Assembly (NCBI GenBank): GCA_963978895.1
Contig: OZ022242.1
Span: 20,159,129-20,223,128 of the forward strand
From: Erpobdella octoculata
Lineage: Eukaryota > Annelida > Clitellata > Hirudinida > Erpobdellidae
Direction of reading: 5' to 3'
DNA length: 64,000 nucleotides
Shown: piece after piece, positions 55,234-57,210 of the stretch
Numbering within the stretch: position 1 is the first letter of the stretch
How the letters are laid out: each line of letters begins with the position of its first letter
The notes under the pieces: generated by a model
Told to the model about the DNA's origin: nothing
Database searches by the model: none
What the model saw: the letters and a program-made list of their open reading frames with translations, nothing else
Program-made: the position numbers and the translations under genes

Positions 55234-55424
55234 TGTAATATCACTGGTTTCATAATCAACTTCCTATTGATAAACCTTACCTTTATTAAGGACAATAATT
55301 AGAGAATAATTATTAATAGACCAACAGGTATAACTAGCCCTAACAAAGCTTCATTTATTATTTTCCAATAAAACTGCAAAACCATTCTATTGAGCCCGGT
55401 ATACGATTTGGTGATATCGTAACA
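55234..55424 (+). repeat. 5' LTR of the SAP element
   Basis: 191 bp with CCAATAAAAC (polyadenylation-like) near 55366; indistinguishable by eye from the 3' LTR. Confidence 0.93.
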
Positions 55425-55450
55425 TTGGTGATCAGAAGTAGGATACAAGA

Positions 55451-57016
55451 ATGGTTTTGAAATCATTGGATGAGCTTTGGGCGAGTGAAATGAAAGACGA
55501 GCTGGAGAAACGTGGCCTGAGCGATACAGGTAAAAAGGACGAACTTATGGAACGCCTCTTAGCCGCGTTAGTGAATGAGGGCTATGGGCCTGACGACGAC
55601 GAATATCTATTCGACATTGACGAGGAAGCTGTGGTCAAGCGAAGGAAATTAAAAAACAAATTGCTGGAGGAAGAAAGACAACGAGCGAACGAAAACATGG
55701 CAGCACAGAAGAAGACAGGAGAAGGAATGATTCTTGGCCACGGAAACAAAGTAGCAGCAGCCGGTACAACTGTTGAGAGTTTGGTCGCAGGGTTGGCTGA
55801 GGCAGTGGTGGACACGGTTCTGGACCAGCGGGCTGCTGGTGATGTGGGTTGCTGCGGCGAAACCCAATTTGAACTGGAGTCCACCAGCTGTGTCTCAGAG
55901 CATGTGACGGATGAGGGCCGTACAGACTGCACAAGTCAGGTGGGTCATGATGATGAGCCTGTCAAAGATGGTCATGATAAGGAACCTGGCAAAGATGCTC
56001 AAGATGAACCATGGAAAGATGGTGACAGTGATACAGTCGGTTTGGACGTCAAAAACCAAACTAAAGAAGATGAGAAGAATGTTGAAAACGAAATGCAAAA
56101 CGATGAGGATGAAAGTGACGATGATTATTATAATAATGGCAATAACAACTATGGCTTTCACCCATACAGCGACGGTTCTGAAACGGAAGCCTCCATAACA
56201 GACGACGGCACCGAATATTCAGGGTCAGATTTTAGTGACGAATCTAACTCGGATGAAGCAACTAAGGATTTAAAAACGGACGAAACTCCAATCGAGAAAT
56301 ACGTCGAAGCTAATTTGACAAAAAAAGAAGACAGTGATTTGCCAGACGATGGCGAATATTTGAAGAAAGATCCGCTGGACGATACGAAAGTTGACACCGA
56401 TGAGAGAGCCGAGTTGGAATGTGAAAAGAAAACGTTCGATTGTAGCTTGGAAGAAAACAAAGATGACGGCAATGAATTTTTCCAAAACAACAATAGCAAT
56501 GCAGCCAGCAAAAACTCTGAAAAAGATGAGTCAAGAACAGAGAACGGTACCGAAGGTTCTAAATCAGATGAATCCACAGAGGATTCTAGATCAGATAGAC
56601 TAAGAGTCATGGTAAAATTAAATAACAGTTTGATGAAGGGATTTATTGGATCTATGGAACGTGTTTTCGAAAAACCTTTTAAAGAGTTTCTTGAGAAAAA
56701 TCTAAAAGATGTGAAGGAAGAAGAAAAAGCAGACAATTCCGATAAACCGTGCAAAGATGTTCAGGACGAGGCAGGCAAAAAAGGCTGTGATGAACCGTGC
56801 AGAAATGGCGACGATGAGCCAAAGAAAGACTCTGTTGATGAGCCAAAAAAAGACTGGAAGAAACTGTATCAAACGGTCAAGAGACTTGACCATGTTGTTT
56901 GCGAATTGCGGTCAAAGCCACGAGTAAAGATCAAAGTATTTTGGTGTTCGTGGCCGAGTCGCATTTCGCAAAAGCGACTATGCTGTTCGGGACGAACAGA
57001 ATTAAGAAGGGGGTAA
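55451..57016 (+). CDS. SAP-domain acidic protein of an LTR element
   Basis: The 521-residue frame begins 27 bases after the LTR. Residues about 5-40 (SLDELWASEMKDELEKRGL, then TGKKDELMERLLAAL) fit the SAP helix-extension-helix fold, which binds A/T-rich DNA in other proteins. Next is a basic KRRKLKNKL patch, then a long Asp/Glu/Lys/Ser-rich disordered region with two sets of DEP-K-D repeats (about residues 175-200 and 430-475). The last 35 residues look less natural than the neighbouring frame, which reads SILVFVAESHFAKATMLFG up to the polypurine tract, suggesting a late frameshift or deletion. It may be a remodelled gag; no zinc knuckle is present. Function unknown. Confidence 0.75.
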   Translation: MVLKSLDELWASEMKDELEKRGLSDTGKKDELMERLLAALVNEGYGPDDDEYLFDIDEEAVVKRRKLKNKLLEEERQRANENMAAQKKTGEGMILGHGNKVAAAGTTVESLVAGLAEAVVDTVLDQRAAGDVGCCGETQFELESTSCVSEHVTDEGRTDCTSQVGHDDEPVKDGHDKEPGKDAQDEPWKDGDSDTVGLDVKNQTKEDEKNVENEMQNDEDESDDDYYNNGNNNYGFHPYSDGSETEASITDDGTEYSGSDFSDESNSDEATKDLKTDETPIEKYVEANLTKKEDSDLPDDGEYLKKDPLDDTKVDTDERAELECEKKTFDCSLEENKDDGNEFFQNNNSNAASKNSEKDESRTENGTEGSKSDESTEDSRSDRLRVMVKLNNSLMKGFIGSMERVFEKPFKEFLEKNLKDVKEEEKADNSDKPCKDVQDEAGKKGCDEPCRNGDDEPKKDSVDEPKKDWKKLYQTVKRLDHVVCELRSKPRVKIKVFWCSWPSRISQKRLCCSGRTELRRG

Positions 57017-57019
57017 TAA

Positions 57020-57210
57020 TGTAATATCACTGGTTTCATAATCAACTTCCTATTGATAAACCTTACCTTTATTAAGGACAATAATTAGAGAATAATTATT
57101 AATAGACCAACAGGTATAACTAGCCCTAACAAAGCTTCATTTATTATTTTCCAATAAAACTGCAAAACCATTCTATTGAGCCCGGTATACGATTTGGTGA
57201 TATCGTAACA
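57020..57210 (+). repeat. 3' LTR of the SAP element
   Basis: 191 bp copy of 55234-55424, followed by the TA array. Confidence 0.93.

Follow-up and report, generated by a model that had tools for sequence, protein, structure and literature searches.

TRIM and LARD elements are short, devoid of pol and mobilised in trans, and by definition they carry no conserved frame. Ty3/gypsy elements with a tRNA-Leu primer-binding site (PBS) include the Steamer-like/Mag group. In plants, TR-GAG elements are LTR elements with one gag-type ORF and no pol, one of which transposes in Arabidopsis ddm1; they are described as encoding a full-length GAG and as closely resembling an autonomous relative (PMC8704663). 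Concerning SAP domains, the SAP of SAFB2 contacts an AT-containing duplex by NMR (PMC9958909), and AT selection by hnRNP U is reported to rest mainly with its RG domain, to which SAP adds (PMC10403129). Among the papers listed first by our text searches, judged by titles and abstract starts, none joins a SAP domain with a retrotransposon Gag or an LTR element with (AT)n targeting.

The window analyzed here (the whole stretch of 64,000 nucleotides of Erpobdella octoculata) carries an LTR element that is likely to be a non-autonomous satellite of SAP-Gag Ty3/gypsy elements, in which the head of such a Gag, made up of SAP, an acidic motif and a coiled coil, is fused to a long acidic tail. This reading is based on the observed anatomy of the element, the Gag kinship of its head, its mosaic structure, an excess of private frame breaks and its (AT)n surroundings. 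The first-pass annotation had already proposed a young non-autonomous LTR element with a gag-derived frame, and this part stands; of the remodelling into a DNA-binding, histone-like protein that it offered as one option, the histone-like character is unsupported, and what was remodelled is the tail rather than SAP.

Anatomy of the element and of its protein

The window element (55234-57210) is bounded by two identical LTRs of 191 bp each (55234-55424 and 57020-57210). Its features and those of its borders are the following:

55094..55230, no strand: (TA)n on the 5′ side of the element, limits by eye
55231..55424, + strand: 5′ LTR, identical to the 3′ LTR (55234-55424 in the first-pass annotation; probable true start TAATGT at 55231)
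55426..55444, + strand: primer-binding site of tRNA-Leu type, variant TGGTGATCAGAAGTAGGAT; exactly TGGTGTCAGAAGTGGGAT in sister copies L012, L015 and L025
55451..57016, + strand: single ORF, 521 aa plus stop, from the ORF listing
55484..55570, + strand: SAP domain, residues 12-40 (Pfam 6.1e-8; PDB 1zrj E 0.0019; pLDDT about 85-91)
55622..55807, + strand: long helix or coiled coil in the head (Gag-type), covering residues 58-119, with confidence up to about residue 90
55943..57013, + strand: acidic tail from about residue 165, predicted to be unstructured, net charge -38, replacing capsid, nucleocapsid and pol
56159..56239, no strand: recombination breakpoint, A upstream and B downstream, between diagnostic sites at interior nt 735 and 815
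57004..57013, + strand: polypurine tract AAGAAGGGGG, then TAATAA, from sequence reading
57017..57210, + strand: 3′ LTR (57020-57210 in the first-pass annotation), with a B-type to A-type switch at about 57092-57100
57211..57418, no strand: (AT)n on the 3′ side of the element, limits by eye

Paired LTRs with TG..CA-type ends, a PBS and a polypurine tract (PPT) mark the element as an LTR retrotransposon; the TGGTGTCAGAAGTGGGAT-type PBS is, we assume, the complement of tRNA-Leu 3′ ends. The two identical 191-bp LTRs, the PBS and the PPT annotated beforehand are all in place, with the LTR start probably lying 3 bases earlier. TAA stands ahead of TGT at the 5′ end of 15 of the 16 complete copies defined below (AAA in L019), the 3′ LTR is also preceded by TAA, and the flanks of L009 and L014 read ATAC directly before TAATGT and again directly after GTAACA. 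Since these two flanks put TAA inside the element, the LTR probably starts at TAATGT (55231 and 57017), which would give a length of 194 bp and a 4-bp target duplication. This duplication is ATAC in L009 and L014; L016 and L021 are mismatched at 4 bp and the window copy is unreadable inside (AT)n.

Coding sequence fills nearly the whole interior, and the stop codon immediately follows the PPT. Pfam found no protease, reverse transcriptase (RT), RNase H or integrase belonging to the window element itself, whose interior is one ORF, and no Pfam match to a protease, RT, integrase or zinc knuckle in the 521-aa protein; the ORF listing and Pfam thus agree with the earlier view that this SAP protein is the sole gene and is devoid of these domains. 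The SAP domain (PF02037) scores 32.5 bits against a gathering score of 23.9 (E 6.1e-8). In the AlphaFold2 model, the SAP fold and the beginning of a long helix (residues 1-90 or so) are confident and little else is, the tail being apparently disordered. The charge of the tail ranges from -38 to -46 across 342-358 residues in 17 intact copies. The N-terminal SAP and the acidic DEP-K-D repeats noticed beforehand are present; the basic patch comes down to one short stretch, KRRKLKNK, the overall net charge of the head is acidic (-16), and the description of the protein as histone-like found no support. Among 7994 protein candidates scored (those sharing most words), a single one, P0001, matches the whole protein (94% identical), and no other relative of the acidic tail was found among them.

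Elsewhere in the window, two ORFs of non-LTR reverse-transcriptase type were recognised by reading (272-2566 and 51612-53270), and a 1162-codon coiled-coil-like frame without Pfam match (31367-34855) is probably an exon of a host gene.

Copies of the family, recombination and state of the frame

A search of the 386-Mb genome with the LTR gave 1580 first-look candidates, the best 40 of which were scored and all matched; a search with the protein gave 5274 candidates, of which 83 were scored and listed at 90-100% identity, 32 of these (counted from the table) being without internal stop. Copy numbers therefore cover scored matches only (40 of 1580 LTR candidates and 83 of 5274 protein candidates). 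Among 20 stretches fetched around LTR matches, five (L018, L022, L023, L025, L027) hold no complete LTR pair; the 15 others and the window copy make up the 16 complete copies, in five of which the frame (471-521 codons) reaches its normal end, the other 11 being broken. Twelve of the 16 have LTRs of equal length that show 0-6 differences within the pair (0 for the window pair), indicating that the family was active recently and over some time; the recent activity proposed for the window element is thus borne out by its identical LTRs and by the few LTR differences of its sister copies. Twelve copies (L029-L040) and 20 further ones come from the upper part of the protein table, a sample biased to intact frames. 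As read, eight of these twelve have frames of 520-522 codons and four end after 506-507 codons; this late stop, common to 4/12 copies, is inherited, and the last 15 or so residues are dispensable.

Two copies have peculiar structures. In L009 (1880-6844), a nested gypsy interrupts the satellite copy; this gypsy has a 1460-codon frame showing features of gag-pol, and its LTRs are 99.6% alike over 271 bp. L040 carries an extra TATATATATTAA at the start of both LTRs, as if flanking (AT)n had been absorbed into U3.

The copies form a subfamily A (the window copy and L028-L040) and a subfamily B (L010 and others). Between A and B, the heads differ by a dN of 0.62 and a dS of 2.4, and the tails by a dS of 0.08. 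Anciently diverged heads are therefore joined to nearly the same tail, which indicates that head and tail have recombined. Over 231 diagnostic sites, the window copy is of type A in the head and early tail and of type B in the late tail and U3, and it is again of type A in the last 6 of 27 diagnostic LTR sites; its tail breakpoint is common to L029 and L030. In L028, the interior is mostly A and the LTR mostly B. An R-U5 from one RNA, a U3 and 3′ interior from another and a switch back, as read from these sites with a presumed U3/R border, are what first-strand transfer would produce if two RNAs were packaged together. As the breakpoints lie where template switching is expected to place them, the RNAs were probably co-packaged. 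Such template-switch recombinants are a further mark of LTR retrotransposons present in this family.

The dN/dS comparison suggested beforehand gives a weak signal: for the whole frame, NG86 yields 0.55 among the 13 A copies and 0.64 among the 4 B copies, and the values come close to neutral once transition bias is corrected. By the same method, the head, its first 60 residues and the tail give 0.33, 0.12 and 0.58 within A, and 0.76, 0.60 and 0.62 within B. After correction, shared tail changes give an omega of 0.86 for subfamily A, 1.21 for B (4 sites) and 0.84 for the two combined, none of which differs from 1; in the A head, private changes give 0.38 (p 0.04) and the 6 shared ones 0.85. The tail residues are thus hardly constrained, and strong purifying selection on them is unsupported after this correction.

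Frame breaks were analyzed in 16 tails from the LTR-sampled set, including L023 and excluding the partial L009 and L027. These tails show 12 private frameshifts and 1 shared, 9 private stops and 0 shared, and 145 private and 70 shared other substitutions. Frame breaks (21 private, 1 shared) are thus more often private than other substitutions (Fisher p 0.006), neither stops alone (p 0.06) nor frameshifts alone (p 0.07) being significant. The sole shared frameshift is found in L017 and L028, which belong to different subfamilies, and two private stops of different kinds lie at one codon (469). This excess suggests that source copies have retained an open frame even though the residues of the tail evolve with hardly any constraint, and it fits a tail that must be made and acts through charge and disorder rather than fixed sequence. 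The first-pass annotation had opposed a protein kept for transposition to a frozen remnant and held that random breakage in other copies would speak against the former. Eleven of the 16 copies are indeed broken, yet all tail breaks but one are private; the frame apparently kept open favours the kept protein, and the near-neutral tail residues speak against it.

SAP-Gag relatives and insertion context

The TGGTGTCAGAAGTGGGAT PBS is followed by non-satellite sequence at 74 places in the genome, 14 of which were fetched (11, later 3). The Gags of L046, L047 and L048 begin with SAP according to Pfam (E 2.4e-4, just under the gathering score, 1.3e-8 and 3.4e-12, respectively). By reading, L046/L052, which have a tRNA-Leu-type PBS, encode a SAP-Gag, CCHC, a DTG protease and a gypsy RT (RVT_1 confirmed by Pfam in L052), and L047/L053 show the same order with CCHC, DTG protease and gypsy RT, the frame being broken in places in both. 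In these Gags of the same genome, the SAP head precedes a capsid-like region, zinc knuckle, protease and RT. Five public proteins (P0002-P0006), all SAP-bearing, are related to the L046 Gag; P0002 has SAP, a CCHC zinc knuckle and a DUF1759 match under its gathering score. In the head, P0003 matches L010, of subfamily B, at 46% over 97 aa (E 6e-16) and P0002 the window protein at 40% over 94 aa (E 9e-12), the window head aligning with these Gags across SAP, a DPxxFEF motif and an ENRAAQ coiled coil. As to the gag-pol relatives that the earlier annotation proposed to look for, SAP-Gag gypsies exist in the genome, and homology to an autonomous Gag concerns the head only. The frame is gag-derived, as had been suggested; SAP, which Gags of genome gypsies and of public proteins also have, is no remodelling peculiar to this element, and it is the rest that was remodelled. 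A recent acquisition of SAP by the window element is ruled out by the SAP-Gags found elsewhere in the same genome.

No autonomous element with near-identical LTRs was found, nor was any parent with acidic tail and pol among the 14 fetched exact-PBS places (L041-L051 and L094-L096, mostly read over 1.5-3 kb) of the 74. A parent gag followed by pol, which had been named as evidence against a remodelled protein, is seen for the head only. Similar LTR tails and the same PBS type occur in L041-L043, L045 and L051, all degraded; the LTR of L046 differs. Older degraded relatives carry parts of the A-type head region (L041-L044 by reading, L094-L096 by BLAST). Among them, the short L095 has part of the A-type head and the C-terminal end and is devoid of the acidic middle; this middle may have been gained, by insertion or repeat expansion, another reading being a deletion in L095. 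Two other places deserve mention: L049 has the same PBS type and a gypsy RT, its first frame having no SAP-like start by reading, and L074 has satellite-LTR-like sequence just upstream of a family-2-type PBS, corresponding to a nested insertion or a recombinant.

The 3′ LTR is immediately followed by ATATAT in 43/47 copies (12/16 LTR-sampled, 11/11 and 20/20 in the two other sets); L029, whose stretch lacks the 3′ LTR, is out of this count, and the pair L071/L072, which has the same flank, may not be independent. The four exceptions have ATAC (two copies), AAATATAT and ATCTATAT. (AT)n tracts of at least 12 bp account for 1.4% of the window; in the sampled flanks (55 kb), their share is 3.4%. 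As a control, we used the non-SAP gypsy of the window (10615-15372), in whose gag-RT frame Pfam found only RVT_1 and no SAP: ATATAT is present at 0/20 of its LTR ends versus 43/47 (p 2e-13). These ends come from its 40 best LTR matches (14 downstream LTRs of a pair and 6 single LTRs), with L097/L098 sharing a flank and possibly not independent. The nearest to ATATAT is L101 with AATATATATT; three of the 20 (L110, L112, L114) lie in other simple repeats, and the window copy, outside the 20, has (ATGT)n on one side and GTATGTATATATAT on the other, so that this gypsy too occasionally inserts into simple repeats. All 40 scored LTR matches of this gypsy are 100% identical over 166-167 bp, which points to a very recent burst. 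The window copy has identical 167-bp LTR stretches and interrupted frames (ORFs 10776-12845, 12788-13495 and 13496-15124). Two of its LTR copies with a common 3′ flank, L097 and L098, are separated by about 53 kb on C1 and probably result from a segmental duplication.

The SAP-Gag families follow (AT)n to various degrees. In family 2, an AT repeat lies at or runs into the presumed LTR start in 8/10 copies, L074 and L075 being unreadable and the repeat overrunning this presumed start in L077 and L078. Family 3 (10 copies) includes two copies in long (AT)n and one in (ATGT)n, the others having short AT-rich, other or unreadable 5′ ends, and family 7 has (AT)n in 1/3 copies. Overall, the (AT)n habit is strictest in the satellite and is common, not universal, in the SAP-Gag lineage.

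Interpretation and comparison with known systems

As a satellite, the element would have its RNA packaged and copied by a SAP-Gag gypsy, with RT and integrase supplied in trans. The head would let the protein join or travel with the particles or the pre-integration complex of its partner, and the SAP domain, predicted to prefer AT-rich DNA, would help to set the (AT)n target. The acidic tail may keep the protein soluble or engage chromatin, and would act by charge and disorder and not by fixed sequence. A bolder proposal, which we advance tentatively and regard as rather doubtful, is that the Gag-borne SAP is a targeting module of this gypsy lineage that would read (AT)n microsatellites and deliver pre-integration complexes to them. 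The satellite would then have kept only this module plus the acidic tail, directing its own cDNA, and possibly that of its partner, into an ATATAT safe haven. If true, it would be Gag, and not integrase, that carries the targeting information of an LTR element.

There is nearly an even chance that the (AT)n context comes instead from the integrase or from a host factor of the SAP-Gag lineage, SAP serving in particle assembly, RNA/cDNA binding or nuclear retention. SAP and integrase travel together in autonomous elements; as both were inherited together in this lineage, the (AT)n habit may be that of the integrase, and families 3 and 7 follow (AT)n only in part. On the other hand, both satellite subfamilies retain the SAP head though capsid, nucleocapsid and pol are gone, and the SAP of SAFB2 contacts an AT-containing duplex by NMR (PMC9958909). 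The larger role of the RG domain in hnRNP U speaks against a target set by SAP (PMC10403129). It seems improbable that the element is a plain deletion derivative (LARD/TRIM-like) whose frame is a passive gag leftover spread recently by a few intact source copies. The near-neutral substitutions within subfamilies, the 11 broken copies among 16 LTR-sampled complete ones and the late stop common to 4/12 read copies would suit such an origin. It accounts less well for the excess of private frame breaks (p 0.006), for heads at dS 2.4 that carry nearly the same tail (dS 0.08) and for L095, whose lack of the acidic middle suggests that this middle may be a gain, unless L095 underwent a deletion.

AT repeats are unstable, and a short ATAT target could have expanded into the (AT)n tracts once the element was in place. 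In keeping with such growth, the ATATAT-type run is short and gives way to other sequence in no fewer than 7 of the 47 flanks on the 3′ side (L030, L038, L055, L058, L061, L066, L069). We nevertheless hold it to be very unlikely: the window copy has more than 100 bp of repeat on each side and no LTR difference, and the non-SAP gypsy, whose LTRs are also identical, has ATATAT at 0/20 ends. As for a host gene or an assembly artefact, nothing beyond the single ORF speaks for it, and the many dispersed copies with LTR, PBS and PPT make its probability negligible.

The satellite reading, which we retain as the likely one, describes a multi-copy, non-autonomous LTR element that has retained a single part of Gag and swapped everything else for an acidic tail. 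A predicted DNA-binding domain of Gag is moreover linked to an extreme insertion context, in contrast to a non-SAP gypsy of the same genome. This family makes two questions testable: how LTR elements reach harmless sites and what non-autonomous elements gain from coding.

Like TRIM and LARD elements, the window element is short, devoid of pol and presumably mobilised in trans; it differs from them by the one long frame that fills its interior. It resembles the Steamer-like/Mag gypsies by its PBS type, LTR size and TG..CA-type ends and differs by the absence of pol, the SAP-Gag elements being only candidate members of the Mag group. Its SAP is similar, by sequence and predicted helices, to that of SAF-A/SAF-B proteins (PDB 1zrj; PMC9958909, PMC10403129), which are host chromatin/RNA proteins and not retroelement Gags. 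TR-GAG elements (PMC8704663) are the closest kin: they too are LTR elements with a single gag-type ORF and without pol. However, they keep a whole Gag, whereas the window element retains the Gag-type head only, devoid of capsid and zinc knuckle, with an acidic tail added.
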